This document shows, piece by piece, positions 2,672 through 43,671 of a stretch of DNA of 58,723 nt. Source of the stretch: Xanthomonas bonasiae (GTDB taxonomy: Bacteria > Pseudomonadota > Gammaproteobacteria > Xanthomonadales > Xanthomonadaceae); contig NZ_JAFIWB010000031.1 in assembly GCF_017163705.1 (NCBI RefSeq), forward strand, positions 1-58,723, written 5' to 3'. Below the pieces are notes generated by a model that ran no database searches, was not told where the DNA came from, and saw only the letters and a program-made list of their open reading frames with translations. Every line of letters begins with the position of its first letter. The stretch's first letter is position 1. The translations under genes and the position numbers were made by a program.

Positions 2672-3517
2672 TCAGGCATGTCCCCAGGCGTCAGGCCATG
2701 GCCTGCCCGCCGCCACCGGAAAACCGGCGTTGAGCTCCCGCGCGCGCTGGCGCAGGCGCAGGCGCAGCGCGTCGGGGATCGCGACTCCCCCCTTGCCGGC
2801 GTGCAACCGGGAAGCGTCGGGATTCATTTTGCGGCGAAGATGCTCCGGCAGGTCGCGCAGTTGCTTCATCGCCATCGTCCGCACCGCCTCGCGCGCTTGC
2901 CGGGAGTCGAAGCTCACCGCAGCGTCCCGGTCGATCCCCAGCCAGCCGCAGAGGTCGCGGAAACCGGCGTCCGGTGCCGCGTACATGTCCTCGAACGTCA
3001 TCAACCGCAACCGCTGTTCCGGGAAGAACTGGCGCCAGCGCGACAGCGGCCCGGTCACGTCCAGCAGGTTGAGGTAGTGCAGTCCGAACGGGAAATACGT
3101 GGTCGCGAAACGCGCCTCGCCGGTGCGGAAGATCGCCGCCTCGGGGTCCGCGTCGCCTTCGTTGCCCGTGCGCAGATACAGCTCGTACAGGCTGACCAGC
3201 ATGTCCGCCGGATTTCGCAACAGCAGCACGATGCGCGCATCGGGATGCGCCTTCGCGATCAACGCCGGCGCCTCGTGGCTGTAGAAGTACCAGACCGAGG
3301 CCTCGGCGCGATAGCGCTGATCGCCGGCAACGGCGAACAGCCGCTGGTAATCCGCAGGATCGGAAACGGTATGCGGTTGAGCGGGCAGATCCGCGGCGTA
3401 GAAATGCGGTTCCTTCAGCACGGACGCGTAGACATCGGGATGCTGCTTCAGCGCGGCGAACAGCGACGTGGTGCCGCATCGCGGCGCGCCGATGACGAAG
3501 AGATTCGGCGCCTTCAC
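2672..3517 (-). CDS. PAPS-dependent sulfotransferase (Sulfotransfer_1 type)
   Basis: 281 residues from GTG at 3517, which overlaps the preceding stop codon as GTGA; a second GTG lies one codon upstream. The start of the chain carries the 5'-phosphosulfate-binding loop (GAPRCGTTS, residues 10-18). KEPHFY follows at 35-40, and the 3'-phosphate site is represented by R101 and S109 in LLLRNPADMLVSLYELY. These are the marks of heparan/alcohol-type sulfotransferases that move sulfate from PAPS to a hydroxyl or amine. Full-length for the family. It is the last gene of the overlapping pathway operon, so it probably acts late, as a tailoring enzyme. The acceptor is unknown. Confidence 0.85.
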   Translation of the reverse strand: MKAPNLFVIGAPRCGTTSLFAALKQHPDVYASVLKEPHFYAADLPAQPHTVSDPADYQRLFAVAGDQRYRAEASVWYFYSHEAPALIAKAHPDARIVLLLRNPADMLVSLYELYLRTGNEGDADPEAAIFRTGEARFATTYFPFGLHYLNLLDVTGPLSRWRQFFPEQRLRLMTFEDMYAAPDAGFRDLCGWLGIDRDAAVSFDSRQAREAVRTMAMKQLRDLPEHLRRKMNPDASRLHAGKGGVAIPDALRLRLRQRARELNAGFPVAAGRPWPDAWGHA

Positions 3518-4218
3518 CACGGAAAAATCGCCTTGTCCTTGTAGAACTTTCCGGTCTCGCCGCCGCCATCGGCCAGCCACAGGATGGTCTCGGCCCCCTC
3601 CTCCGGCGAACGCGGCGCGGCGATGCCGCCGAGCTTGGTCCTGACCCACCCCGGGGTCATGCAGTTGACGCGGATGCCGCTGTCGGCAAGCTCGATCGCC
3701 AGCGCCTGGGTCAGCACGTTCAATGCCGACTTCGAGCTTCGGTACGCCAGGTTGTTGCCTTCGATCTTGGTGGAGCTGCCATGGCCGCTGGACACATTGA
3801 TGATCTGCGCCTGCGCACGCTCGCGCATCAAGGGCAGGACGAGCTGGATCAGGCGCCACGGGCCGAAGAAATTGACGTCGAACGTCGCCCGCGCCTGCGC
3901 CTGGGCTTCCGTGCTGGGCTTGTCGCGCACGCCGACGGAGACACCGGCGTTGTTGACGAGCAGGTCGATATGCCCGTGGGCCTGGGCGACGACGTCGATC
4001 GCCGCCGCCATCGAAGCTTCCGAACAGACGTCCAGTTGGATCGGCGTCACGTTGGTCAGCTGGCGACGCTCGACCGCCAACGCGCCGTCGGCCAGATTCC
4101 GGCAGCCCATGTACACATGCACGCCGCGCTGGGCGAGGCCTTCGCATGCGGCGAGGCCGATGCCCCGATTGCCGCCGCTGATGAGGGCGACGCGATCGCC
4201 GGCTGTCGTTTCGGTCAT
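3514..4218 (-). CDS. Short-chain dehydrogenase/reductase
   Basis: 234 residues from ATG at 4218, overlapping the previous gene's stop as ATGA. Classical SDR features are visible: glycine-rich SGGNRGIG at 14-21, NNAG at 89-92, catalytic Ser in NVSS at 141-144 and YRSSK with Tyr159 and Lys163. The residues after the second beta strand, MGCRNL, suggest NADP(H) preference. The protein is closest in style to carbonyl-reductase-like SDRs. It lies between two sulfotransferase genes in one translation-coupled operon, so it probably reduces or oxidises a carbonyl or hydroxyl on the pathway intermediate before or between sulfations. The substrate cannot be read from sequence. Confidence 0.87.
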   Translation of the reverse strand: MTETTAGDRVALISGGNRGIGLAACEGLAQRGVHVYMGCRNLADGALAVERRQLTNVTPIQLDVCSEASMAAAIDVVAQAHGHIDLLVNNAGVSVGVRDKPSTEAQAQARATFDVNFFGPWRLIQLVLPLMRERAQAQIINVSSGHGSSTKIEGNNLAYRSSKSALNVLTQALAIELADSGIRVNCMTPGWVRTKLGGIAAPRSPEEGAETILWLADGGGETGKFYKDKAIFPW

Positions 4219-4970
4219 GCTGCATCCATCCGGTATTCCGGAAAGCGGTTGAACAGGAAGGCTTCCCTGCGCACGACGAAATCGCGCAGGTTGTCGTCGA
4301 AGTAGTCGCGCGCGTGCGGGCGCGCCCGCGCTTCGTGGGCCTCGTCCGGCATGACCCGGCCGTGCTCGCGGACGGTTTTCGACAGCGACGCATCCGCGCC
4401 ATGGCGCTCGAGATAGTCGGCGAGGTCGTCGTTGAGCGTCTCGGTCCGCAGGAACTCGACCGGATACTCGAACGCCTGCAGGTGTCCCCGATCGAGGTCT
4501 TGCTCGCCGATGCCGGCGAATGCGCTCTTCGGGTCCTTGCAGAAGAAGCGGATGAACTGCTCCGTGTGCCAACCGAGCGCCCGCTCCGCCGGCAGCTTCG
4601 GAGTGTCGTATCCGCTGGCTACGCCGCGATGCACGTTGACGAAGAAGCGATTGGCGATCGCGACGAACGCGTCGAAACCGACCTGGGGATACTCGGGAAA
4701 GTCCCGCTGGATCAGCGCCGGATCGCAGTATTCCTGCGGATGCGTCTTCCACCAGCCGTAGTGGTACTGGGACACGTAGCGGTCGAAGGGCGAGCGCATG
4801 ACCGAGAGGATGGGCTTGCCTCGGTCGGCGTCCGGGATCTCGTCGCAGGTGGCGTGTTTCCGCCCGGTTTCCACGGCCTGCGCGCCATACACGCGCCGCA
4901 GCATCTGGGTGATGAACGTTCCGCCCGTCTTGGGCATGTGGATGAAAACGAAATCCGGCGTTATCAGCAT
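4215..4970 (-). CDS. Sulfotransferase of the Sulfotransfer_2 type
   Basis: 251 residues from ATG at 4970, five bases after the radical SAM stop. The sequence opens with IHMPKTGGTFI (10-20), the PAPS loop typical of carbohydrate/chondroitin-type sulfotransferases. RSPFDRYVS at 59-67 is the 3'-phosphate-binding segment. It differs clearly from the other sulfotransferase of the cluster, which has the PRCGTTS and KEPHF signatures, so the two are not a recent duplication. The rest is rich in charged and aromatic residues with no signal peptide, consistent with a cytoplasmic enzyme. Two sulfotransferase families in one operon suggest two sulfation sites or two acceptors. Confidence 0.82.
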   Translation of the reverse strand: MLITPDFVFIHMPKTGGTFITQMLRRVYGAQAVETGRKHATCDEIPDADRGKPILSVMRSPFDRYVSQYHYGWWKTHPQEYCDPALIQRDFPEYPQVGFDAFVAIANRFFVNVHRGVASGYDTPKLPAERALGWHTEQFIRFFCKDPKSAFAGIGEQDLDRGHLQAFEYPVEFLRTETLNDDLADYLERHGADASLSKTVREHGRVMPDEAHEARARPHARDYFDDNLRDFVVRREAFLFNRFPEYRMDAA

Positions 4971-4975
4971 CGTGG

Positions 4976-6325
4976 TCAGGCCTTGAGCGGCCTCGCGTTG
5001 CCGGTGAGCCGACGCCTCAACGCCGCGCCGAGATAACGGCCGCAATAGTCGCCGTAGATGACGCCCTCGTCGGTGAGGCGCAGTCGCTGGTCCTTGAGGG
5101 TGACCAGGCCTTGACGCTGGAGGTGCGCGAGATCCTCGGCGAGCATCATGTCCAGGTGCACGCCGTGCCTGTTCTGGTAGTCGTCGAGATCGATCGAGGT
5201 CGTCTTCAGCCCCATCACCAGGTCGCGCAGCATATGGTCGGCGCTGCTGATCTCCAGCACCCGCTGGGTCGGGATCAGTCCGCTCTCGACGCGTTCCAAA
5301 TATGCGTCGATCTCGGTGATGTTCTGCCTGCTGCGGCCGCCGACGGTTCCGAACGCCGACGCGCCGAAGCCATACATGTCTTCGCCGCGCCAACGGCTGA
5401 TGATGTGATGCTGCGGATACTTCCCTTCGCGGGTAAAGGTGAAGTACGTGGACGGCAGGTAGCCGGCCTCGCGCAGGCGCGAAAGACCCCAGCGCGCGAA
5501 CGCCATCTCCTGATCCGGCCCGGGCAGCGAGAGCGTGCCTTGCCGGACGTCGTTCATGTAGTGCGCGTTGGAGTACAGCTCCATCTTGTACACGGTGACC
5601 GCATGCACCCCGAGGGAGACGGCACGATTGATCGAGTGCTGCCAGCTCTGCATCGTCTCGCCTTCGAGCCCGGACAGCAGGTCCACGTTGACCACTGCTC
5701 CGGTGCTCAGCGCGCGCTCGATCGCGCGCGAATTCTTTTCGTCGGTATCGTGGCGGCCGGTCAAGGCGACGACGCGGTCGTCGAAGGACTGGATGCCGAA
5801 GCTGATCCGGTTGACGCCGAGGTCCGCCAGGCCGTCGATCATGCGGTTGTTCAGCGTGATCGGCTCGATCTCGAAAACGAACTCCGGCGCGTCCAGCACG
5901 AAGCATTCCTCGATCTTGCGCTTGATCCGCCGCAGCTGCTCGGGCTGGATCACGCTGGGCGTGCCGCCGCCGAAATAGATCGACTTCACGCGCCGTCCGC
6001 GCAACCTGTGCGCGTCGGCGACCAGCTCGATCTCGCGGCACAAGGCGTCGACGTAGCGCTCGCGGACCGCGTGCGAAGACTCGGACAGGATCTCGATCTT
6101 GAAGAAGCAGTAGCGGCAGCGCTGCAGGCAGAACGGAATATGGAAGTACAGATGCAGCGGCTTTTCGGACAGCAGATCGGCGTCGCCGGCCGACTTCCAG
6201 TAACGCTGGGGCGGCCACGCCACCACGAAGCCGTCGCGGTTCGGCGCTTCGTTGCGATAGTCCGGCGGCGCTTCGATCGGCGGCGCGCCCGCGTCGCCGA
6301 CCAGCGCGATCGTGAGGTTCGTCAT
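4976..6325 (-). CDS. HemN-like radical SAM enzyme
   Basis: 449 residues; its ATG at 6325 shares one base with the ACP stop (TAATG). The radical SAM cluster motif CxxxCxxC is at Cys66, Cys70 and Cys73, within HIPFCLQRCRYCFF. GGGTP follows at 119-123, and later motifs typical of the HemN/HemW family include SRWRGEDMYGFGASAFG. The C-terminal HemN-type domain is present. Members of this family include the anaerobic coproporphyrinogen oxidase, the haem chaperone HemW, and class C methyltransferases and cyclopropanases of natural-product pathways. Its place directly after the ACP gene argues for a tailoring role on a carrier-bound or released aromatic intermediate rather than haem synthesis. The reaction is unknown. 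Confidence 0.88.
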   Translation of the reverse strand: MTNLTIALVGDAGAPPIEAPPDYRNEAPNRDGFVVAWPPQRYWKSAGDADLLSEKPLHLYFHIPFCLQRCRYCFFKIEILSESSHAVRERYVDALCREIELVADAHRLRGRRVKSIYFGGGTPSVIQPEQLRRIKRKIEECFVLDAPEFVFEIEPITLNNRMIDGLADLGVNRISFGIQSFDDRVVALTGRHDTDEKNSRAIERALSTGAVVNVDLLSGLEGETMQSWQHSINRAVSLGVHAVTVYKMELYSNAHYMNDVRQGTLSLPGPDQEMAFARWGLSRLREAGYLPSTYFTFTREGKYPQHHIISRWRGEDMYGFGASAFGTVGGRSRQNITEIDAYLERVESGLIPTQRVLEISSADHMLRDLVMGLKTTSIDLDDYQNRHGVHLDMMLAEDLAHLQRQGLVTLKDQRLRLTDEGVIYGDYCGRYLGAALRRRLTGNARPLKA

Positions 6326-6606
6326 TACGCGCTGGCCTCGTCCGCATGCTCGGGCAGGCGCTTCAGCACCAGCGCCGCCACGCTATCGAGCGACTTGAAC
6401 GTGCCCGAATCCAGATCTTCGTCCAGGATGCGGATCGGGAAGCGGCGCTCGAGATGGTCGATGAACTCGGCCATGCTGATGGAATCCAGCGCGAGTCCGT
6501 CTTCCAGGAAAGAAGCCCCGTCCTGGATCTGCTCGTAGCGCACATTGAGATCCAGGTCCTCGGCGATGAGGCGCTTCAAGGTGTCGACGATCTGAGACTT
6601 ATCCAT
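6325..6606 (-). CDS. Acyl carrier protein
   Basis: 93-residue acidic helical protein. The phosphopantetheine attachment serine is Ser42 in LDSISMAEF, within the usual D-S-[IL] context at the start of helix II. The length and the downstream FKSLDSVAALV segment fit free-standing ACPs. Its start overlaps the end of the adenylating enzyme gene by eight bases, and its stop overlaps the radical SAM start, so these three products are translationally coupled. It probably carries the acyl or aryl group activated by the ligase. No phosphopantetheinyl transferase is in the window, so one elsewhere in the genome must activate it. Confidence 0.92.
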   Translation of the reverse strand: MDKSQIVDTLKRLIAEDLDLNVRYEQIQDGASFLEDGLALDSISMAEFIDHLERRFPIRILDEDLDSGTFKSLDSVAALVLKRLPEHADEASA

Positions 6607-7948
6607 GGCGATACTCCTTGATGATGGTCTTCCTGTCGGGTTTTCCGCTACCCAGGCAAGGCAGGTCCGACACGAGCGTGTAGTGGTCCGGCCGGGCGAA
6701 GGCCGGCAGGGTCATCGATGCGTGGCGCTTGAGGGCGTCGATGGTCAAGGCCGAGGTCGAGGGCTTGATCACGGCGGCGATGGCCTTGCCGGCCGTGGTC
6801 TCGTCTTCGAGCACGATCGCCACGGCCTGGTCGACATCCGGCCAGCCCATGATGGCGCCCTCGAGATCGGCCAGGATCAGCAGCCTGCCCGCGCGGTTCA
6901 GGCTGAGATCGGCCCGGCCGCGTATCGCGAAACCGCCGCTGTCGTCGAAGGTCGCGATGTCGCGCGTGTCCCACTCGGCGGGCAACGCCGACAGCGTTCC
7001 CTGGTGGGCGATATGCGTCGCGGCATGCGGATGGCTCACGATGAGAGTGCCTTGCGCGGCGTCCGCGTCCGCGAGGCATGCGCGCACGCCTTCGAGCGGA
7101 CGCAGCGCCTTGGGTGCGTTGGGCTCGGAGATCGCCACCACGCCGAGCTCGGAACTTCCGTAGAGGTCGAAGACGCGGTTGAACACCCGTTGCGCCTGCG
7201 CGTGCAGCGAGGGCGGCGTGCCGTCGCCGGCGAGCACGAGGCCGCGGCAACTGGCGACCGCATCGTTCTTGCGCTGCAGCAGCATGCGCAACAAGTGCGG
7301 CGTGGAAAAGACCCAGGTCGGCTGGGCGGCCCGCAGCGCATCGTTGAAGCCGAGCAGATTGGCCTTGGCCAGCAAGTGGATCTGCGCGCCGGCCAGCAAC
7401 GCCGGAATCAATGCCGCGCCGAGGCCGTACATATGGTGCAGGGGAACGGTGATCAGCACCCGGTCGTGCGCGCCGAGTTCGAGCCGGCGCAGGACCATGG
7501 CGCCGGTCGCGAGCAGATCGTCGTACGCATGCCAGATCACCTTCGGCGTGCCCACAGTACCCGAGGACAGCACCGCCACCCCGTCCGGCCATTGCCCATA
7601 CCCGGCGGGCGGTGGCGCGATCTCCAGAGGCGAGGCCGCTGCCTCGTTCCCGGCCGCAGCGCCGATATGCGCGTCGCACAGGGCCGGTGGCGTGGCGTCG
7701 CCCGCGCAGAGCAGCAGCGGATGCCCGTCGACGATGGCCGTCAGCTGCAGCGACAGCATGCCGAGATCGCCGATTCCCAGCAGCGCGACCCGCCTGTGCA
7801 TGCGGTAGGCCTGCCATCGCTCGCGCCCTGTGTCCAGGAGCTGTTTCAGCGTCGCGCTTTCGCCATTGAGATGCACCACGCTGCCGCTGGCGGCAAGCGC
7901 GTCGCGCCAGCCCTGCGCGCGGAACGGAGCGAGGGCCGCTGCGTTCAT
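6599..7948 (-). CDS. Acyl/aryl-adenylating enzyme (ANL superfamily)
   Basis: 449 residues from ATG at 7948, overlapping the upstream stop as ATGA. ANL core motifs are recognisable: SSGTVGTPK at 128-136 (A3), YGSSE at 263-267 (A5), TRDIATFDDSGGFAIRGRAD (A7/A8) and GSGKPDRK near the end, with the A10 lysine at about 436. The N-terminal part is short for a CoA ligase. The start Met is supported by the overlap rather than by a strong ribosome site. Given the adjacent ACP, it most likely adenylates a carboxylic acid and loads it onto the ACP thiol. 4-Hydroxybenzoate from the preceding gene product is the obvious candidate, as an inference. Confidence 0.87.
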   Translation of the reverse strand: MNAAALAPFRAQGWRDALAASGSVVHLNGESATLKQLLDTGRERWQAYRMHRRVALLGIGDLGMLSLQLTAIVDGHPLLLCAGDATPPALCDAHIGAAAGNEAAASPLEIAPPPAGYGQWPDGVAVLSSGTVGTPKVIWHAYDDLLATGAMVLRRLELGAHDRVLITVPLHHMYGLGAALIPALLAGAQIHLLAKANLLGFNDALRAAQPTWVFSTPHLLRMLLQRKNDAVASCRGLVLAGDGTPPSLHAQAQRVFNRVFDLYGSSELGVVAISEPNAPKALRPLEGVRACLADADAAQGTLIVSHPHAATHIAHQGTLSALPAEWDTRDIATFDDSGGFAIRGRADLSLNRAGRLLILADLEGAIMGWPDVDQAVAIVLEDETTAGKAIAAVIKPSTSALTIDALKRHASMTLPAFARPDHYTLVSDLPCLGSGKPDRKTIIKEYRHG

Positions 7949-8496
7949 CGCGCGCGCTCCAGGGATTCGTTGTTGAGAATTTCGCTCACTTCGACGCAGT
8001 GGGCGCCATTGAGCCGCATCGCGTAGCGTCGCGATATCGCCCAGGTCGATTCCGTCCGCAGACTGCGCGGCGCTGGCACGCGCAGGGTTTCCAGGTCGGT
8101 CTTTTCGAGCAGACCGCGGTCGTGCGGATCGAACAGCTTGCCGATGCCCACGCTGCCGTCGAGAAGCTTTTGCCGCTGCTCCGCGTCGATGCAGGCCAGT
8201 TGGATCGACGATTCGGCGACCAGGAGGATGTTGCCCGGGTCGCGCACGTACAGCCGGGAACGACGGCGCAGGACCTCGCTGCCGTCGGCTTGCGCCTCGA
8301 TGCATTGACCCAGGACTTCAACCTCTACGGGCAATCCGGCGACAGCCTCCAGAAAGAAGGTGGTCGAACCCTGCAAGGCCAGATAGTCGCTGAGCCGCTG
8401 CGAAGGCATGGCTTCGGCCCAGAGGCTCCCGGCATACGGCTCCGCGGAGGTCGTGTCCGGAGAAGCAGTCCAGGAAGCCAACAGGTGCGAGGTCAT
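7945..8496 (-). CDS. UbiC-like chorismate pyruvate-lyase (putative 4-hydroxybenzoate synthase)
   Basis: 183 residues from ATG at 8496, chosen over a longer in-frame start because of an AAGGA ribosome site about ten bases upstream. Features in UbiC/Rv2949c order: SDYLALQGSTTFFLE, a central RRSRLYVRDPGNILLVAESS strand pair, LLDGSVGIGKLF (the PLG..LF element) and a final ISRRYAMRLNG...VSEI strand. This fold converts chorismate to 4-hydroxybenzoate and pyruvate. As first gene of the overlapping operon it would supply the aromatic building block. UTRA domains share this fold but normally follow a DNA-binding domain, which is absent here. Identification rests on motif order, so it is moderate. Confidence 0.68.
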   Translation of the reverse strand: MTSHLLASWTASPDTTSAEPYAGSLWAEAMPSQRLSDYLALQGSTTFFLEAVAGLPVEVEVLGQCIEAQADGSEVLRRRSRLYVRDPGNILLVAESSIQLACIDAEQRQKLLDGSVGIGKLFDPHDRGLLEKTDLETLRVPAPRSLRTESTWAISRRYAMRLNGAHCVEVSEILNNESLERAR

Positions 8497-8669: not shown

Positions 8670-9950
8670 TCACCGCGTTCGCGGCGCGAGCACCGTTTCG
8701 ATCGGAGCCGAAAACACCCACGCGGTCTCGCGGCAGGGTTGGTTGTTGGGATCGCAACCGCCGACGTACAGCGTTCCTGGTTCGAAGGGAGACGCAGCGA
8801 AGCTGCGAGCGGCGAAAAGCGCTGCCGGCGGTTCCAGGTCCGCCGTTTCGATCCGTCCGAGCGTATGCCGCCGCCCTCCCGGATCGCGGATCAGATACCA
8901 GGCATCCCGCACCCACCCATCCGTCGGATGGATGTCGACCCGCGTGCTGTAACTGGCGCCGACGCCGGCCAGCAACAGCGCCTGTCCGGTACCGGGATCG
9001 ACCACGGGCGTGAAGTCGTCGTAGGCCACCACGCCGAACGCCGGGCGTTTTCCCCAGTGCATGCCCAGGAAGTCGAGCACGTCCAGTTCCAGGGTCTCGC
9101 GGAAATCGTCGCGCGGGTCGATCCGCACTATCCGGCAACGGTCCCCTTCCAGTGCCGCCAGCAGCACCTGGCCCGATCCCGAGGGATGGGCAACGGCGGT
9201 GAGTCCCCGGTATCCGCAACTGGGGAAAATCAGCGGGTCCGCGATGGTGTGGACCTTCTCCCATCGCGGCGCGGGGCCGTCGATGCGTCGATACAGGTGC
9301 GGCCGGATGCTGACGTACAGGTGGCCATCGCATTGGGTGAAGGCCATCGGACGGCGCCGATAGCCGGACAACTCGGCATGTTCGTCCCAGCGGATCTTGC
9401 CCGGCGCGTCCGGGTCGTAGCTGCCGCTGAAAATGCCGAGCGGCAACGTCCCGGCAAAGACGCGCTCCTGCCCGGTCACGGTGTCGCGATGGACGAAGAA
9501 GCTGCGGGTACTGGTCAGGCCGGAGCCGACGCCCAGGCGCGTGCGCGCCCACGTCCCGGCTTCGTCGTCGAAGCAATCGACATACACCGCGCCCTGGCTG
9601 TTCGAGGGACCGGCGAGCAGCAGCGAGACCGGGGCATCGAGCGTGCGGCCGCGCCCGTCCTCGGTGAACGCCACCGATTTCAGCAACACCCGCCAATAGT
9701 CGCGATCGTATTCGTGGGCCTGCCGCCACTCGCCGTCCGCCCGGTCCAGCACGGCGATCTGCGCGCCGACCGGCGGATCGCCCGGCAGATACCGGTTGTG
9801 GGTGTAGGACAGCGAAGAAAACAGCCGCCCGCGATGCGGCACCAGGTGCAGCACTTCGGTGCCGCTGAGCAGTCGACCACCGCCGTCGCGCATCCCGGCC
9901 TGAAAGACGCGGCGGAAAGGCGCCGGCGGCGTGGCGATCGGTGCATCCAT
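8670..9950 (-). CDS. Uncharacterised propeller-like protein of the island
   Basis: 426 residues from ATG at 9950, nine bases after the CCA-like gene. I do not recognise the family. Short strand-rich blocks repeat with patterns such as LFSSLSYTHNRYLPG, QGAVYVDCFDD, GHLYVSIRPHLYRR, GQVLLAALEGDRCRI and GTLYVGGCDPNNQP, resembling the blades of a beta-propeller with aromatic and glycine turns. No signal peptide or membrane segment is visible. Two Cys-rich spots occur, FPSCGY in the second half and GGCDPNNQPCRE near the end. By position it could be a binding or lyase-like partner of the pathway. Function is unassigned. Confidence 0.75.
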   Translation of the reverse strand: MDAPIATPPAPFRRVFQAGMRDGGGRLLSGTEVLHLVPHRGRLFSSLSYTHNRYLPGDPPVGAQIAVLDRADGEWRQAHEYDRDYWRVLLKSVAFTEDGRGRTLDAPVSLLLAGPSNSQGAVYVDCFDDEAGTWARTRLGVGSGLTSTRSFFVHRDTVTGQERVFAGTLPLGIFSGSYDPDAPGKIRWDEHAELSGYRRRPMAFTQCDGHLYVSIRPHLYRRIDGPAPRWEKVHTIADPLIFPSCGYRGLTAVAHPSGSGQVLLAALEGDRCRIVRIDPRDDFRETLELDVLDFLGMHWGKRPAFGVVAYDDFTPVVDPGTGQALLLAGVGASYSTRVDIHPTDGWVRDAWYLIRDPGGRRHTLGRIETADLEPPAALFAARSFAASPFEPGTLYVGGCDPNNQPCRETAWVFSAPIETVLAPRTR

Positions 9951-9959
9951 GCGAGCCTC

Positions 9960-10769
9960 TCAGGCGAAGAAGGAATCCAGCGTGTCGATCGAGGCCGGCT
10001 GGCGGGCGTGCGCATAGAGCGCGCGCTTGAACGCCTCCTGCTGGTCGCTCTCCACACGCAGATGCTCGGGAGTCCATCGCCGGATGCGCGTGCCCATGCC
10101 CTGGATGTCGCGATCGGCGTGACTGTCCAGATAGGCGAGCACGTTGCTCGTGGCCGAGTAGCCGCGGCTGAGGAATTGGGCGATGCGGAAGGTCATCCGG
10201 TAACTGGCTTCCAGCACGCGGGGATGGGCGATGAGTCTGAGCGATTTCTCGTGCAGATCGCCGACGCCGCAGCCCAGGGGATCGAGCAGGACCCGCTCGG
10301 CGCAGTCGTAGTAGAACGCATTGACCGAGAAGTCGCGCATGAGCGCGTCCTCGGCCAGATCGGCGCGCGCGACGAAACGCGTGTTCCACATGTCGCCGTT
10401 CTGGATGTCCTTCCAACTGCGCAGGATATTGATGTCTACCGCGCCCGAAGCGGCGTCGCCCCAACGCAGGACGCCGAAACGGTCGTTGCGCATGCGCAGC
10501 GCAGCGGCGTCGGTACCGGGATAGGCGTCGCACAGCAGGCGGTGCGTTTCGTCCAGGCCGCAGTCCAGCGCCAGATCGATGTCCTTGGCCGGCCGGCCTG
10601 CGAGCCAATCCCTCGGCGTGCCTCCGATGATGAAGACGCGCTTGCCCGCGCGTCGGAACACCTCGATGAGGTCGCGCACGCGCACGTCGCATCGGTCGTC
10701 CCGATACACCTGCTGTTCCAGAGCGGCTTCCACTCGCTCGGGTGCGAGCGATGCATCGATGATCTTCAT
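9960..10769 (-). CDS. Short CCA-adding/poly(A) polymerase-like nucleotidyltransferase
   Basis: 269 residues from ATG at 10769; an alternative ATG at 10802 would add 11 residues. Class II nucleotidyltransferase signatures are intact: GGTPRDWL at 49-56, metal-binding DID at 63-65, the third carboxylate D112 in VDINI, and RDFSVNAF at 145-152. The neck region with ASYRMTFRIAQF follows. The chain ends soon after and lacks the body, tail or HD domains, so it is much shorter than bacterial Cca or PcnB (usually over 400 residues). All catalytic residues appear present, so it is probably active. A role in tRNA CCA repair is unlikely; nucleotidyl transfer to a small molecule or RNA is possible. Confidence 0.8.
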   Translation of the reverse strand: MKIIDASLAPERVEAALEQQVYRDDRCDVRVRDLIEVFRRAGKRVFIIGGTPRDWLAGRPAKDIDLALDCGLDETHRLLCDAYPGTDAAALRMRNDRFGVLRWGDAASGAVDINILRSWKDIQNGDMWNTRFVARADLAEDALMRDFSVNAFYYDCAERVLLDPLGCGVGDLHEKSLRLIAHPRVLEASYRMTFRIAQFLSRGYSATSNVLAYLDSHADRDIQGMGTRIRRWTPEHLRVESDQQEAFKRALYAHARQPASIDTLDSFFA

Positions 10770-10837
10770 GTCGCGAGATACCTGATCCTGGTGGCCGATC
10801 ATCGCCGCTGCGTCCCGCGCACGCTTCCCCACGATGC

Positions 10838-11611
10838 TCAGGACCTGATGCCGACGCCTCTGCCGAGCAGCGTCAGCGCGAAGGCGGCCAAGCCTATAAT
10901 GAACAACAGCATCACCACAAGCGAAGTGCCGATGCCCGCGGTGTCCATGCCCAGTACGCCATAACGGAACGCGCTGATCATGTGCATGAGCGGATTGAGC
11001 CGCGAAATGCTCTGCCAGGGTTCGCCCAACAGGCCGACCGGATAGAACACGCCGCCGAGATAGGAGAGCGGCGTCAGGACATAGGTCGATACGTGCCCGG
11101 TGTCGTAGAAGTTCTTCGCGTATATGGCGACGATGATGCCGACCAGGGAAAAGATCGTGGCGGCCAGTAGTGCCGACAGGAAGACGATAGAGGGGTGCGC
11201 GATGCGCAGCGAGGTCAGCGACAACGCGACCAGCAACACCAGGCCGCCGACCAGGAAACCGCGCACCACCGCGCAGGTCACATAGCCCAGCAGGATCGTC
11301 CAATCGCGCATCGGCGATACCAGCAGTTCTTCTATCGCGCGGTTGAAGCGCATGAAATAGAACGCGCTGGAAGCGTTGGCGTAGCTATTGGTGATGATGC
11401 ACATCATCACCAGGCCGGGAGCGATGAATTGCACATAGCTGAACCCGTCGAAGGTGCCGATGCGACTTCCGATCAGCTTGCCGAAGATCGCGAAGTACAG
11501 AACCATCATCGCCAGGGGCGGAACCAAGGTCTGCACCCACATGCGGAACATGTGCGCGACCTCGCGCCGGACCAGGCAACGCAGGGCGATCAAACTATGC
11601 GAAGCGTTCAT
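10838..11611 (-). CDS. ABC-2 type transporter permease
   Basis: 257 residues with about six membrane segments: near residues 25-45, 60-80, 105-130, 140-165, 172-190 and 228-250. ISYLGGVFYP-like and LNPLMHMISAFRY elements typical of YadH/NodJ permeases are present (SYLGGVFYPVGLL, SRLNPLMHMISAFRYG). Such permeases act as dimers with a cytoplasmic ATPase to export lipids, glycans or small molecules. No ABC ATPase gene is found in the island, so it either borrows one encoded elsewhere or its partner was lost. In context it may export the product made by the neighbouring enzymes. Confidence 0.85.
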   Translation of the reverse strand: MNASHSLIALRCLVRREVAHMFRMWVQTLVPPLAMMVLYFAIFGKLIGSRIGTFDGFSYVQFIAPGLVMMCIITNSYANASSAFYFMRFNRAIEELLVSPMRDWTILLGYVTCAVVRGFLVGGLVLLVALSLTSLRIAHPSIVFLSALLAATIFSLVGIIVAIYAKNFYDTGHVSTYVLTPLSYLGGVFYPVGLLGEPWQSISRLNPLMHMISAFRYGVLGMDTAGIGTSLVVMLLFIIGLAAFALTLLGRGVGIRS

Positions 11612-11671
11612 GCCGCACCGGGTTGCGTCTGAAAGCGGAGAGCGTGCGTCGCGACGGCGGTTGCGGGCATG

Positions 11672-12361
11672 TCAGTTGCGCATGCGCCACGCGTTGGCGC
11701 GCGCGGTGATCCGCACGACGAGGACTTTCTTGAACACGCTGTATTCCATCCAGGTCTGACCGGGCACCGCCGCCAGCGCCTGCTTGAGGTCCAGGTAGCC
11801 CTGCCGCTCCTCCGGGAAGGCGCGCAGGAAGTCGCGGAAATTCAGGATGTCGGCGAATCGAGGATTGTCGGCGGCACAGGTGTGCACGACGAACGAGCGG
11901 CCGCCGTCCTGCCCGATGCGCCAATGCCACGAGAACCCCGCATCGATCGGGCTTTCGCCATACGCCTGATAGCCGAGCCCGGCCAATATCCGGGACTGGC
12001 GCTCGGCCGGAAGCGATGCGCCGGTCGCCACGGCGATATCCAGGATGTTCTTGCTCGGCAGGCCGGCAATGGACGTGCTTCCGATATGTTCGATGCCGAC
12101 CACGTCCTCGCCGACCAATGCCTCCAGCAGCCGGCCTCGCTCGTCCTCGAATGCCTGCGGCCAGCCCGCGTCGTACCGGCTCTGCATGTCCAGCTCCAGC
12201 GCCGGCGGGCGCACGCGCGAGTAGCGGCGCACGAGGTGTTCGACGGTCTCCGCGCCCAGCTCACCGGGGAGCACTTGCTCCTTGAGCCGCCTGATGACGC
12301 GCGCCAGCTGGAGGGCGCCGCCGGTCTCTCTCGGCTGGGCACTCACGACGGCACGCGGCAT
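11672..12361 (-). CDS. GrpB-family nucleotidyltransferase-like protein
   Basis: 229 residues from ATG at 12361; the open frame extends to 12493 but the extra residues look non-coding. The GrpB/UPF0157 signature IEHIGSTSIAGLPSKNILDI is clear. It is preceded by YDAGWPQAFEDERGRLL and followed by GFSWHWRI and a NFRDFLRAFPEER segment. GrpB proteins have a polymerase-beta-like nucleotidyltransferase fold. An extra N-terminal stretch of about 60 residues (QLARVIRRLKEQVLPGELG) is unusual, since most members begin near the YDxxWP motif. It is the first gene of the island in transcription order. Biochemical role unknown. Confidence 0.78.
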   Translation of the reverse strand: MPRAVVSAQPRETGGALQLARVIRRLKEQVLPGELGAETVEHLVRRYSRVRPPALELDMQSRYDAGWPQAFEDERGRLLEALVGEDVVGIEHIGSTSIAGLPSKNILDIAVATGASLPAERQSRILAGLGYQAYGESPIDAGFSWHWRIGQDGGRSFVVHTCAADNPRFADILNFRDFLRAFPEERQGYLDLKQALAAVPGQTWMEYSVFKKVLVVRITARANAWRMRN

Positions 12362-12842
12362 CGCCCGCGCGTTGTCATAGCGTCGCCGATGATCAGGAAA
12401 CCCAGATACGGTCGCCGGTTGCAGCCGGAAGCGGCGATCTCGGTGTGCAGGGACCTGCGGGAACACCGACGCACCAACCGCCTGTTCAACCACGCGTGAC
12501 TCTCGACGCCCCCCTGCCGATCCCCGACTAGAGCATTCGGCTGGCGCTCAAGCCCGTGGGTGGCACGGCTCCAAGGAACATGGCGGTTCCATTGGAGACA
12601 TGGGATACGCGCTTTCGGTGTCCGGCCGAGGTCGGCGTACCGCTCAGGAAGCGCATCGCCCGGATCGGCGGCGGTTGCATCCAGCTTACCTGCCATTGCA
12701 TCTCCATTGCATGTGAGTTGATCGGCGCAAGCGCTGTGCGTGGCCCAAGCATCCCGGCACTGCGGCATTCCGCGCCCAGCATCGCCGGCAGGCGGATGCT
12801 TATGGATCGCCATGGTCGTTGTCAAGCGACATCAGGCCGGCG
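12362..12842. other. Gene-poor right end of the island
   Basis: About 480 bases between the GrpB-like start and the MPE2 remnant. Open frames occur on both strands, including a 160-codon one on the minus strand, but none shows domain motifs, a good ribosome site or composition like a gene. No integrase, transposase or clear terminal repeat was seen here. The promoter of the GrpB-first operon should lie in this stretch. Confidence 0.5.
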
Positions 12843-13095
12843 GCGCAGCCGTCGGACTCGATCATCAACACCGCGTACCCCTGCTCCACCGTGAGGCCAT
12901 AGCGGCGCTGCGCATCGGTCCGCACGATGTGCACGCCGTCGACACCTGCACGCCGGCGATGCCGCACCCACCGGTGCCGCGGCACGCGTGGCCGTCGCGC
13001 TCCCGGTAGACGCTGCCGCCGATCGTCGCCAGCTGCGCCAGCGAGGATGCCGCGACAGTCGGCAGGCAGGTGAGCACTGCGGCGCGCGGCGACGT
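12843..13095 (-). pseudogene. 5' remnant of the second metallophosphoesterase gene (MPE2)
   Basis: On the minus strand this region matches the first 80 or so codons of MPE1 base for base over long runs. RAAVLTCLPTVAASSLAQ corresponds to the signal peptide, ISGSVYQERDGHAGRG of MPE1 to IGGSVYRERDGHACRG, and GVHIVRTDAQ is shared. The ancestral start codon reads ACG (13093-13095), and one G is missing at about 12939-12942, shifting the frame. Similarity stops at about 12843, at the codons for PDGYA of MPE1. With the 3' remnant at 2468-2600 it forms one gene interrupted by the island; the middle 400 or so codons are gone. Confidence 0.88.
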
Positions 13096-13172
13096 GCGTG
13101 GAGTCCTGCGATCGAAACAGGCCGCGATGGCAGCCACCGTCGCGGCACGACGCTGGCTGCCGCCGCGCCAGC

Positions 13173-13796
13173 CTACTTGTGCCGGGCTTCCAGCACCGCG
13201 ACCGCGTCGGCCAGCGCCAGGCCGCGTGCGCGCAGCAGCACGGTCAGGTGATACAGCAGGTCGGCCGATTCGCCGAGCAACGCTTCATCGTCCTGCGCCA
13301 CGCCGGCCAATGCGGTCTCCACGCCTTCCTCGCCGACCTTCTGCGCGATGCGCCGCGTGCCCTTCTCGAACAATTGCGTGGTGTAGCTGCCCAGCGGACG
13401 CTCGCGTTCGCGTTGCGCGACCAGGCGGTCGAGCGCGCCCAGGAACTGGCCCGGCGCCTGCGGGAAGCAGCTCGTGCGGCCGAGGTGGCAGGTCGGGCCG
13501 TGCGGATGCGCCAGCACCAGCAACGTGTCGCGGTCGCAATCGGTCTCGATCGACACCAGGTCCAAGGTGTTGCCCGAGCTTTCGCCCTTGGTCCACAGGC
13601 GCTGCTTGCTGCGGCTGTAGAAGGTGACCTTGCCGCTGGCGCGGGTCGCCGCCAGCGCGTCGGCATTCATGTAGCCGAGCATCAGCACGCGCAGCGTGGC
13701 CGCGTCCTGCACCACCACCGGCAGCAGGCCATCGCCCTTGCTCCAGTCCAGTTCCGCATCCGCAGTCGCGGCGGCGGCTTCGTGCTCATGCGCCAT
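13173..13796 (-). CDS. hisI: Phosphoribosyl-AMP cyclohydrolase / phosphoribosyl-ATP pyrophosphatase
   Basis: 207-residue bifunctional HisIE. The N-terminal cyclohydrolase half (about 15-115) has [40 protein letters not shown] and [13 protein letters not shown], with the metal and zinc ligands. The C-terminal pyrophosphohydrolase half (about 118-207) has [29 protein letters not shown] and ADLLYHL. It catalyses steps two and three of histidine synthesis. Last gene of the his operon, overlapping hisF by 11 bases. A fused HisIE is usual in gammaproteobacteria. Confidence 0.97.
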
Positions 13797-40369: not shown

Positions 40370-41947
40370 TCAGGCCACCGCCCTCTTTCTGGTTTTCCAC
40401 TGCGAGATCAGATCGCTAAGCCAGGCGATTGCAGAAAAACCGAGCGTGACCTGTGGGTAGACGATCAAGATGCCCACCCCCAAGAAGGCAACCTTGAGAA
40501 TAAGAAATCCAGCCCACGCCCAGCCCCAACCCCATTGCAATTGAGGCCGGTATCCGGCGCGGCGCATCCATCGTGCAACCGCGATCACCAACAGTGGCAG
40601 GGCGATCGCCGCGGCAACCGAGGACTTGTCCGCTGCAATGAATGCACTGGCGGCCACGGCAAGGATCGGGATGAAAAAGCGCTGCAACAGCGGGCGCCTG
40701 ACGCAAGGATCGGTTTCGTGTCTGGACTGCCAACGCAGCAGCGAAGCAAAGCAATCCCAGGCAAGCCAGCCACCGAAGATGATTGCGGCACCATAGCAGC
40801 CAACCTTCAGCATCGGGGATATACCGGGTGCCGGATTTCGATCAACCATCGCCAACAAGAGACACAGAAGCAGGAAAACTGCTGCCGCGATTAGGCTGCG
40901 GGCCACCCCGACCATGAAGGCAACTGGATTGAACCTATGCCGATCGCTGACCAAGTACCATGCGCCGACACGTTCCCGATGCAACGGCGGCGGTGGCTGG
41001 CTACCGTCCGGCACGTAGCCGATCAGTTCAAGCAGCCGCCGCACGCGGGCGGGTCGGCCTGGCCAGAGCATTGCCGCGAACACTGCGCCGTCAGACATCG
41101 TCGGGCCAAGCAAGGCCAGTAGCTTGCGCACATACGGAACCGACGCATCGGGATCGCCGCGCCGCCGCAGTGCGTCGCTCAGCTCTCCATATCCGGACGG
41201 TTGCAGCAACCAACGCTTGTGCATCCGTGCGCAGGCGTGCTGCACGAAATAGGGATCGGGTGCGTCCAGTGCCTGCTCCCAATCGAAGAAATCGGCCAGC
41301 ACCTTGTAGTGGTAGATGCTAAGTGCTTCCTCGTGTTCGAGCAGATGTCTCTGCAGGCGGGCACCGATCTGCGGTTTGCTGTCCAGCGACCACAGCTCCG
41401 GTTGCGCAAGCAGCCATGCTCGCAGCGCTTCCGGTTCAAGTCGCTGCGTCTGATGCAGGATGCGCAGCTGCAGCTGCGCCATGTCGACGGACGGCGTATC
41501 CGTAGTGGCAGGCGCGATCGATGGCGCGGTAACGGGACGCCTGCCCGGTGGCGCTTGGGAAGCGTCGGGCGCTTCTGAAGCTTCGGCCCCCCCAGGGGAG
41601 TCAGGCGCTTCGGAAACATCCGGAGGCTGGAAGGCGCCGGCAGCGGGCTGGACGGGAGCAGGCCCGGTTTCCAGCGCAACGGGAGTCCGCGCGAATGCAG
41701 CTCCAGCCTGCACCTGCGGTGCATCACCGCTGTCCTCCACGCCCTCGGCGGCCGGTTCGGCCGCCCGACGCATGGCGGCAAGTTGCCGCGCCCAGCCAAG
41801 CGCCGCCTGATAGGTCTCGTGGAGTTGCTGGAAGCCGGTCGGATCGTCATCCGGGCGGGTCACCTTTAGGCGCGCCGCGTAGGCCCGCTTGATGGCGCGC
41901 TCGTCGGCGTCCTCCTCCAAGCCAAATGCCGCCAATGCCCAGCTCAT
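40370..41947 (-). CDS. Membrane J-like protein downstream of hscC
   Basis: 525 residues from ATG at 41947 (ATGA overlap with hscC). Residues 1-50 form a divergent J domain, MSWALAAFGLEEDADERAIK, then AYAARLKVT and RPDDDP, where the invariant HPD is Arg31-Pro32-Asp33. A long Pro/Ala/Glu-rich linker (about 60-155) leads to a helical region (160-330). Several membrane helices follow (about 335-360, 370-395, 425-470, 485-515). The architecture resembles E. coli DjlB/DjlC, membrane J proteins that partner HscC. The related protein upstream of hscC shares the start and the RPDDDP element. Confidence 0.82.
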   Translation of the reverse strand: MSWALAAFGLEEDADERAIKRAYAARLKVTRPDDDPTGFQQLHETYQAALGWARQLAAMRRAAEPAAEGVEDSGDAPQVQAGAAFARTPVALETGPAPVQPAAGAFQPPDVSEAPDSPGGAEASEAPDASQAPPGRRPVTAPSIAPATTDTPSVDMAQLQLRILHQTQRLEPEALRAWLLAQPELWSLDSKPQIGARLQRHLLEHEEALSIYHYKVLADFFDWEQALDAPDPYFVQHACARMHKRWLLQPSGYGELSDALRRRGDPDASVPYVRKLLALLGPTMSDGAVFAAMLWPGRPARVRRLLELIGYVPDGSQPPPPLHRERVGAWYLVSDRHRFNPVAFMVGVARSLIAAAVFLLLCLLLAMVDRNPAPGISPMLKVGCYGAAIIFGGWLAWDCFASLLRWQSRHETDPCVRRPLLQRFFIPILAVAASAFIAADKSSVAAAIALPLLVIAVARWMRRAGYRPQLQWGWGWAWAGFLILKVAFLGVGILIVYPQVTLGFSAIAWLSDLISQWKTRKRAVA

Positions 41948-43635
41948 GCGCGCGCTTCCAGCTCGTCCAGTGCCTGGGCAAGTTCCTGGCGGTGACGTTC
42001 GATCCGGGCAGTGTCCTGGCTTTCGAGTATCTCGCGGAACTGGTCGAGCCAACGCTGCAACATCTGCCGTTCGTCGATGTATTCCTCATAGACGCGCTCG
42101 ATGCGTGCCAGCATTGCCAGGTTCTGCTGCTGGTCGCGCGGGTGGACCTTCAGCTCGGCCAGGGCCAGCAAGCGCCTGGCGATTTCGTCGCGATCGAGCA
42201 AGCCGGGATTCTGTTCGAGGATCAATTCGTGCCGCTTGCCGGTCGCTTCCTCGATCACCTCGACCTGCAATAATCCGTCCACGTCATAGGTGAATCGGGT
42301 CAGCACGCTCTGCTCGTTGCGCGGGCGCTTGGAATCCAGCGCCACCCGTACTTCGCCCAGCTTAATGTTGCGCTCGACCATGGGGTTCTCGCCCTGGTAG
42401 ACGTCGATGACCACTTCGGTCTGCCGGTCATGGGTGGGATAGAAGGTGTCTTCGCGACTGACCGGCACCACGCTGTTGCGCGGGATGATCGGATGGAAGT
42501 AGCCGTTGCGTACTTGTCCGTCGCCGCCGCGGCGCGACACCTGCGTTCCCAGCGTATAAGGACAAACGTCGGTCAGCACGACCTCGCGCAGGCTCTCGTC
42601 GCGGCTCTTCAGACCAGCTGCCACCAACGCCCCCAGGGCGATCGCATGGTCGGGATTGACGTGACGCAGCGGCAAGCGGCCGAGCATGCGCGTGGCCAAG
42701 CGGCTGATCATCGGCATACGTACCGCGCCGCCGACCAGCACGATGTCGTCCAGCTCTGACGGCCGCAACTTGGCATCGCGCAGCGCACGTTCGATCGGTA
42801 ACCGCATGCGCTGCAACAAGGGCTCGGCCAGCTGCGCAAAACGCGACTCGTCAATCTCCCAGCTGTACGCCTGCCCGGCGATGCTCAGGCTCAGTGCGGC
42901 CTGCGCCTGCGTGCTCAGCTCGCGCTTGAGTTGCTCGACCCGTCGCCGCAATTGGGCACTATCGCTGGGCGCGAGCTTGGCAGGATCGAGCCGATGCTCG
43001 GTACAAAAACCTTCCACCAGCACCTGCAGGAAGTCTTCGCCGCCGAGGAAGTTGTCGCCCGCGCTGGCATGCACTTCGACCACGCCGTCGAACATTTCCA
43101 ACAAGGACACGTCGAAAGTGCCGCCACCGAGATCGAGCACCAGCACGCGGCCTTCTCCTCCGCGTTCCTGCAGCCCGTAGGCCAGCGCGGCGGCGGTCGG
43201 CTCGTTGATCAACCGTTCAACGCGGATGCCGGCCAGTTCGCCGGCCACCCGAGTGGCCTTGCGTTGCGCGTCGGAGAAATACGCCGGCACGCTGATAACC
43301 GCTTCCTCGACCTTTTCGCCCAGCGCGGCTTCGGCATCGGCGATCAGGGAGCGCAGGATCAGCGCCGACAGCTCTTCCGGACGGAAGCTGCGCTGTCCCA
43401 ACTTGGTCTCGCGCGGACTCCCCATCCAACGTTTGAACGCGGCCACGCTGTGACCCGGATGGGTCACCAGCCGATCGCGGGCGGGCTGGCCGACCAGCAG
43501 GCTGCCATCGTCATCGACGCTGACCACCGACGGTGTCAACAGGCCTCCGTGCGGATTGGCGAACAGGCGCCCACCATCGGCATCATGGATGCCGATCAGC
43601 GAGTGGGTGGTGCCGAGGTCGATACCTACAATCAT
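41944..43635 (-). CDS. hscC: HscC-type Hsp70 chaperone
   Basis: 563 residues, shorter than DnaK (about 640). ATPase domain: MIVGIDLGTTHSLIGI, SVPAYFSDAQRKAT, INEPTAAALAYG, VLDLGGGTFDVSLLE and LVGGAVRMPMI. The substrate domain follows, with VCPYTLGTQV, IPRNSVVPVSREDTF and YQGENPMVERNIKLGE. A shortened helical lid ends in LAQALDELEARA; there is no DnaK-type EEVKD tail. HscC in E. coli is a specialised Hsp70 served by J proteins DjlB and DjlC. Here it is placed between two J-like genes, 36 bases after one and overlapping the other, so the three are probably one machine. Confidence 0.92.
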   Translation of the reverse strand: MIVGIDLGTTHSLIGIHDADGGRLFANPHGGLLTPSVVSVDDDGSLLVGQPARDRLVTHPGHSVAAFKRWMGSPRETKLGQRSFRPEELSALILRSLIADAEAALGEKVEEAVISVPAYFSDAQRKATRVAGELAGIRVERLINEPTAAALAYGLQERGGEGRVLVLDLGGGTFDVSLLEMFDGVVEVHASAGDNFLGGEDFLQVLVEGFCTEHRLDPAKLAPSDSAQLRRRVEQLKRELSTQAQAALSLSIAGQAYSWEIDESRFAQLAEPLLQRMRLPIERALRDAKLRPSELDDIVLVGGAVRMPMISRLATRMLGRLPLRHVNPDHAIALGALVAAGLKSRDESLREVVLTDVCPYTLGTQVSRRGGDGQVRNGYFHPIIPRNSVVPVSREDTFYPTHDRQTEVVIDVYQGENPMVERNIKLGEVRVALDSKRPRNEQSVLTRFTYDVDGLLQVEVIEEATGKRHELILEQNPGLLDRDEIARRLLALAELKVHPRDQQQNLAMLARIERVYEEYIDERQMLQRWLDQFREILESQDTARIERHRQELAQALDELEARA

Positions 43636-43671
43636 GAGCGGGTCCTTGTGTCCCTATCCGTTGTGAAAATT

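Follow-up and report, generated by a model that had tools for sequence, protein, structure and literature searches.

A conserved gene cluster of Xanthomonas bonasiae pairing a free carrier protein with a HemN-family radical SAM enzyme and sulfotransferase-type genes, and a proposed pathway for it

We analyzed a stretch of 58,723 nucleotides (nt) of the Xanthomonas bonasiae contig NZ_JAFIWB010000031.1 (hereafter, the window), in which a run of minus-strand open reading frames (ORFs), spanning 8496 down to 2672, forms a set of seven head-to-tail genes. In order, these encode a 183-amino-acid (aa) protein with the chorismate lyase fold, apparently of the Rv2949c/DUF98 branch (7945–8496; hereafter, the lyase); an ANL adenylating enzyme, proposed to be an aryl-AMP ligase loading the carrier protein (6599–7948; PF00501 and PF13193 above cut-off); a free-standing acyl carrier protein (ACP; 6325–6606; PF00550, 27.1 bits against a cut-off of 20.8); a HemN-family radical S-adenosylmethionine (SAM) enzyme, proposed to be a class C (two-SAM) one-carbon transferase (4976–6325; PF04055 and PF06969); a divergent sulfotransferase-like protein, ST1 (4215–4970); a short-chain dehydrogenase/reductase (SDR; 3514–4218; PF00106, 150.5 bits); and a sulfotransferase, ST2 (2672–3517; PF13469, 58.7 against 27 bits, and PF00685, 51.4 against 22 bits). 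For ST2, translation could start at either of two neighboring GTG codons, at 3517 or 3520; 3517 was chosen. Pfam cut-offs are passed by five of the seven proteins: the ANL enzyme, the ACP, the radical SAM enzyme with its HemN_C domain, the SDR and ST2. An earlier, sequence-only reading had described the seven genes as overlapping or nearly touching, and the ORF coordinates bear this out: four of the six junctions overlap by 1–4 nt, ANL and ACP overlap by 8 nt, and a gap of 5 nt lies between the radical SAM enzyme and ST1 (−8 to +5 nt overall). Such tight junctions suggest that the genes may be translationally coupled. About 170 nt separate the start of the lyase gene from the next gene upstream. 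Pfam, applied to ten cluster proteins (elsewhere in the window, ORFs were listed only), found no ketosynthase or condensation domain, in agreement with the sequence-only reading, and an aryl polyene, polyketide synthase or nonribosomal peptide synthetase (NRPS) cluster was ruled out on this ground.

The full seven-gene order was found in seven loci: the window, L006, L029, L008, L012 (Lysobacter enzymogenes ATCC 29487), L013 (Lysobacter sp. yr284) and L010, a Lysobacterales metagenome-assembled genome (MAG) in which the contig end cuts ST2. A gammaproteobacterial MAG (L015) carries a partial locus, running from part of the ANL gene to part of the SDR gene, where its contig ends. Because the order recurs in seven loci and in part in L015, the cluster is more than a chance arrangement; its gene content, order and conservation are direct observations, as are the fold of the lyase and the retention of the catalytic or ligand residues described below. 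The scan of GTDB contigs was narrow, using two peptide patterns only, and gave five loci out of 21 stretches; two of the five are letter-for-letter identical to the G061 and G294 stretches, and L008 is the same as L011 and L010 the same as L014. L010 belongs to another family of the order, and its proteins share 36% (lyase) and 70% (radical SAM enzyme) identity with those of the window. In comparison with L029, ten cluster genes (grpB left out) showed ratios of nonsynonymous to synonymous substitution (dN/dS) of 0.11–0.23 at dS of 0.21–0.26, and are under purifying selection.

The lyase search gave matches, own genome counted, in 3 of 20 genomes of the genus, 3 of 198 of the family and 3 of 250 of the order, and ST1 was found in the identical three genomes of the genus. 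The five loci so matched outside the own genome all have the seven genes in the conserved order. The co-occurrence that had been predicted was thus borne out, homologues scattered without co-occurrence were ruled out, and the conserved order expected in other strains is kept in Lysobacter, in the Lysobacterales MAG and partly in the gammaproteobacterial one. At the class level, the lyase profile matched 8 of 369 genomes, own included. Among the other seven, G446, whose order was represented by two genomes only, carries a quartet of lyase, ANL, ACP and radical SAM genes; around the matches in G468, G745, G411, G470 and G627, tblastn revealed no neighboring ANL or ACP gene and none for the radical SAM enzyme of the cluster (in G468 and G470, little of the contig follows the match), and G511 was left out. 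In 398 genomes of the phylum, 25 matches were obtained, own included, and tblastn found no module neighbors in flanks of about 1.5 kb around the other 24; nor were any recognized in a longer G816 stretch, among ORFs read by eye and in partly doubtful frames.

The first enzyme had been read as UbiC-like. Its chorismate lyase fold stands, as the model of the window protein matches both 2nwi and UbiC, and Arg78, Gly119 and Glu172, invariant in all eight lyases, align with the conserved Arg, Gly and Glu of UbiC-type lyases, residues with roles in UbiC. The assignment to the UbiC branch fits less well: identity to UbiC is 20% over the structural alignment, and PF04345 is not matched. The window lyase matched no Pfam or NCBIfam family at E ≤ 1, PF01947 included. 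The latter family (“Rv2949c-like chorismate pyruvate-lyase,” cut-off 22 bits) is reached by the L010 ortholog with 27.0 bits, and other orthologs score 18.3 (L012, N-terminally cut query), 16.3 (L008) and 12.6 (L025). By these comparisons the window lyase appears to be nearer the Rv2949c/DUF98 branch than UbiC. An ordinary UbiC of ubiquinone synthesis was rejected, given that no protein of the genome matches PF04345 and that the lyase occurs in so few genomes of the genus. A PF01947 chorismate-lyase-like gene was also seen at L031:5004–5582, near ORFs read as trpC and trpD.

The ANL alignment contains the stretches SSGTxGxPK, YGSSELG, GRADxSxNRAG and a C-terminal GKPDR, motifs of such enzymes, and in an alignment of four carrier proteins the phosphopantetheine site, Ser42, lies in an invariant DSIS. 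Several results weigh against the loading of hydroxybenzoate. In addition to the absence of any family match for the window lyase, the ANL profile matches many acyl, aryl and amino-acid ligases; among NCBIfam models, the ACP scores best with cispentacin AmcB (47.7 bits against a cut-off of 80); and AmcH, the 2-oxoglutaryl-ACP ligase that is the partner of AmcB, is among the NCBIfam matches of the ANL enzyme, under its cut-off. Judging from this AmcB/AmcH likeness, a non-aromatic acid is a possible ANL substrate. That the lyase-fold protein is instead a ligand-binding or chaperone protein, with the ANL enzyme activating another acid, seems to us improbable.

The radical SAM enzyme had been called HemN-like, which is right for the family and probably not for HemN itself. 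At E ≤ 0.001, a profile of four orthologs matched only HemN (1olt, E 1.3e-37) and NocN (9p2u, E 2.2e-24) in the PDB. The residues holding SAM I and SAM II in NocN are named in PMC13266988; Tyr34, Cys40/44/47, Tyr96, Arg153, Arg171 and Asp196 of NocN correspond to Tyr60, Cys66/70/73, Tyr117, Arg173, Arg191 and Asp215, and all eight mapped positions, comprising CX3CX2C and the residues for SAM I and SAM II, are kept in all nine module proteins. Tyr117, the equivalent of the NocN SAM II contact Tyr96, is replaced by His109 in HemN and by His or Phe in the two other HemN-family proteins of the genome, and the position of the fourth cysteine of HemN (Cys71) is occupied by Phe or Tyr in the nine module proteins. 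The best-scoring NCBIfam model is the methyltransferase ChuW/HutW (202.9 bits, cut-off 400), and the cut-off of the HemN model TIGR00538 is missed (165.8 against 324.95 bits). A spare HemN was rejected, considering the replaced cysteine, the missed TIGR00538 and a separate gene with CX3CX2CGC on contig C11 of the same genome; a further gene, on contig C83, resembles HemW by our own reading.

Other results weigh against a one-carbon transferase. HemN is the stronger PDB match, and since it shares seven of the eight mapped residues, these show a two-SAM site rather than methylation. The NocN alignment ends at residue 228, and both the catalytic Tyr276 of NocN and its Arg230 lie beyond it. The enzyme is under the cut-off of every NCBIfam model listed, the nearest approach being to the haem chaperone HemW (TIGR00539, 180.4 against 205.4 bits). 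The closeness to HemN in PDB score and in mapped residues would also suit an enzyme that transfers no carbon and instead oxidizes the carrier-bound acid as HemN would (by dehydrogenation or decarboxylation) or rearranges it by another radical route, before the SDR and the sulfotransferases act; but the fourth cysteine of HemN is replaced, the His109 position holds Tyr as in NocN, a methyltransferase model has the highest NCBIfam score, and in the precedent with a carrier protein, NosI/NosJ/NosN, the enzyme is a one-carbon transferase (PMC5585349). We therefore consider such a reaction unlikely. A two-SAM enzyme like NosN or HutW appears to be the better reading than HemN, with modest support, because the evidence specific to it consists of one residue and a sub-threshold score.

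Of the two different sulfotransferases predicted earlier, ST2 is well founded in its Pfam scores and in its match to the PDB sulfotransferase 3rnl (E 4.1e-33), whereas ST1 is weakly supported. ST1 falls under the Pfam cut-offs (PF03567, 17.7 against 22 bits; PF00685, 14.6 against 22 bits), which counts against its assignment, and its PDB match, to a heparan sulfate 6-O-sulfotransferase, is weak (E 0.11). In its stretches HMPKTGGTF and RSPxxRYxSQ, key positions are invariant in all eight loci, and despite the sub-cut-off scores ST1 may work like a sulfotransferase. The ST1 profile gave 11 matches in 312 genomes of the class, own included; the other ten were weak (best E 1.9e-8).

Four further genes stand directly upstream of the set in six of the eight loci, in the order grpB-like, ABC-2 permease, poly(A)-polymerase-head and 426-aa gene. 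In the window these, all on the minus strand, encode a GrpB-like protein (11672–12361, start approximate; PF04229, 106.5 against 25.5 bits), of a family placed among nucleotidyltransferase-type proteins; an ATP-binding cassette (ABC) permease of the PRK15066 family, a candidate exporter part (10838–11611; NF011648, 319 against 225 bits, and PF01061, 119.9 against 26.9 bits); a poly(A)-polymerase-head nucleotidyltransferase-like protein (9960–10769; PF01743, 57.4 against 23 bits); and an unannotated 426-aa protein (8670–9950; no Pfam or NCBIfam match at E ≤ 1; in six loci). No ATPase gene adjoins the permease gene in the ORF lists of the window or of L012. L010 has none of the four, and the L015 contig is too short to show them; within the genus, the three genomes with the lyase and ST1 are also those with the 426-aa gene. 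Because of the recurrence of the four genes in six loci and this co-occurrence, the inherited unit in the family comprises eleven genes, of which the seven are the core. Thus, the core order of the sequence-only reading was retained and the boundary of its unit was not.

Within another order, L025 carries the quartet of lyase, ANL, ACP and radical SAM enzyme (the last with 38% identity), and ST1, SDR and ST2 were not found there by tblastn. The quartet adjoins an NRPS with two adenylation domains and one condensation domain; further neighbors in L025:108–16332 are a carbamoyltransferase with both Pfam domains, a PEP-mobile-domain protein, a 350-aa protein without family, two genes resembling exosortase-associated hydrolases (under cut-off) and one weakly flippase-like gene. 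L025 may represent a second, different pathway that uses the same module. Because the quartet occurs there without them, the SDR and the sulfotransferases look like tailoring enzymes and the quartet looks like the functional core, as judged from this one locus.

L025 also bears on a different role for the window cluster, in which the modified aryl-ACP would serve as starter or cap for some larger peptide, sugar or lipid scaffold synthesized elsewhere, with the sulfotransferases acting on the conjugate. The NRPS, the carbamoyltransferase and the two hydrolase-like genes beside the quartet fit such a role, and so do the two nucleotidyltransferase-type genes (the GrpB-like one included) and the ABC permease upstream of the window cluster. 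By Pfam, none of the seven proteins has a thioesterase or hydrolase domain; no release enzyme is thus at hand, which speaks for a transfer to another scaffold and against a self-contained pathway. Against the starter or cap role stand the absence of ketosynthase and condensation domains from the ten scanned proteins and the lack of ST1, SDR and ST2 in L025. On balance, we find this role possible and somewhat unlikely.

We propose instead a one-carrier small-molecule pathway, to which we give an even chance of being right. The reactions that we infer, as well as their order, regiochemistry, release and product, would be as follows. The lyase would take pyruvate off chorismate to yield 4-hydroxybenzoate, which the ANL enzyme would adenylate and then attach to the ACP phosphopantetheine. 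With two SAM molecules bound, the radical SAM enzyme would form a SAM-derived methylene radical that adds to the ring of the hydroxybenzoyl thioester on the ACP, leaving this ring methylated or hydroxymethylated; the SDR would then oxidize or reduce either the added group or the carbonyl after its release, and ST2, perhaps with ST1, would place sulfate on the phenol, on the added hydroxyl or on both. Export of the product may fall to the upstream ABC permease. Two hydroxyls would be present on a hydroxymethylated 4-hydroxybenzoyl unit, which would suit two sulfotransferases. The assembly-line idea of the sequence-only reading is thereby kept as to gene set, order and co-occurrence, and modified as to the lyase branch, the type of radical SAM enzyme, the size of the unit and the tailoring role of the SDR and sulfotransferases. 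As a bolder version, which we regard as very improbable, the radical SAM enzyme would be the founding member of a branch that attaches one carbon to a hydroxybenzoyl ring held on a carrier protein; one sulfotransferase would then make the new benzylic hydroxyl a leaving group, for a quinone-methide-type electrophile or for transfer to another molecule, and sulfation would thus activate rather than decorate.

The proposal joins the logic of NosI-NosJ-NosN with that of Rv2949c-FadD22. The former is the closest working precedent: its adenylating enzyme places an aromatic acid on a free-standing carrier protein, and the ring, while bound there, gains a carbon through a class C radical SAM enzyme (PMC5585349). 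The NosI-NosJ-NosN (nosiheptide) and NocN (nocathiacin) systems share with the cluster an adenylating enzyme, a free carrier protein and a HemN-family two-SAM enzyme (PMC5585349 and PMC13266988). The nosiheptide route differs in that 3-methyl-2-indolic acid comes from NosL and is placed on a thiopeptide, whereas the cluster has a chorismate-lyase-type gene, an SDR and sulfotransferases. No NosK-like hydrolase was apparent, as Pfam found no hydrolase domain in the ten cluster proteins, of which the lyase and the 426-aa protein matched no family. In the mycobacterial phenolic glycolipid starter route, the closest precedent for the first steps, Rv2949c and FadD22 make and activate p-hydroxybenzoate (PMC7205293); the cluster would have a counterpart of this pairing of a PF01947-family lyase with a p-hydroxybenzoyl-AMP ligase. 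The cluster differs in lacking a polyketide synthase, in having a separate ACP and in the added radical SAM enzyme, SDR and sulfotransferases. FadD22 has a carrier domain. UbiC is like the window lyase in fold and aligned residues and unlike it in identity and family match, as described above. The class C methyltransferases ChuW/HutW provide the best-scoring model for the radical SAM enzyme and have the same domain pair, but the score is about half the cut-off and the seven-gene set contains no haem-related gene.

The surrounding DNA may bear on the origin of the cluster. An intact metallophosphoesterase gene (526–2265) lies downstream, and a fragment of about 336 bp just upstream (12842–13173) is 82% identical to its 5′ part; L029 has such a fragment upstream too, and L006 has the downstream gene with no clear fragment match. 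Possibly, the cluster was acquired next to a duplicated end of this gene. Repeats of 46–87 nt, 69–98% alike and with GCGGCTGAAGCCGCTCCTAC-type stretches, flank the phosphoesterase gene at 1–448 and 2309–2417, and histidine biosynthesis genes were read among the ORFs just upstream of the cluster (region 9960–13796). Third-position guanine-plus-cytosine content is 0.78–0.89 in five cluster ORFs and 0.89–0.95 in many ORFs read as housekeeping, with two at 41944–45351 outside this range; the lower values in the cluster would fit horizontal gain.

No relevant report of such a cluster was found in the open-licence PMC literature, which leaves outside most subscription papers and all preprints. For L. 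enzymogenes CX03 and CX06, clusters of NRPS, lanthipeptide, arylpolyene, RiPP-like (ribosomally synthesized and post-translationally modified peptide) and redox-cofactor types are described in PMC9410377, whose main text mentions neither a sulfotransferase nor a radical SAM enzyme. The enzyme families are known; their combination is new, and so possibly is the substrate of the radical SAM enzyme. If the proposal is true, carrier-tethered two-SAM radical chemistry would be extended from the indolyl route of thiopeptides to benzoate units derived from chorismate. As the cluster contains no megasynthase domain, genome-mining rules based on megasynthases may overlook it. The presence of the cluster in the culture-collection strain L. 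enzymogenes ATCC 29487 means that its product can be sought directly.

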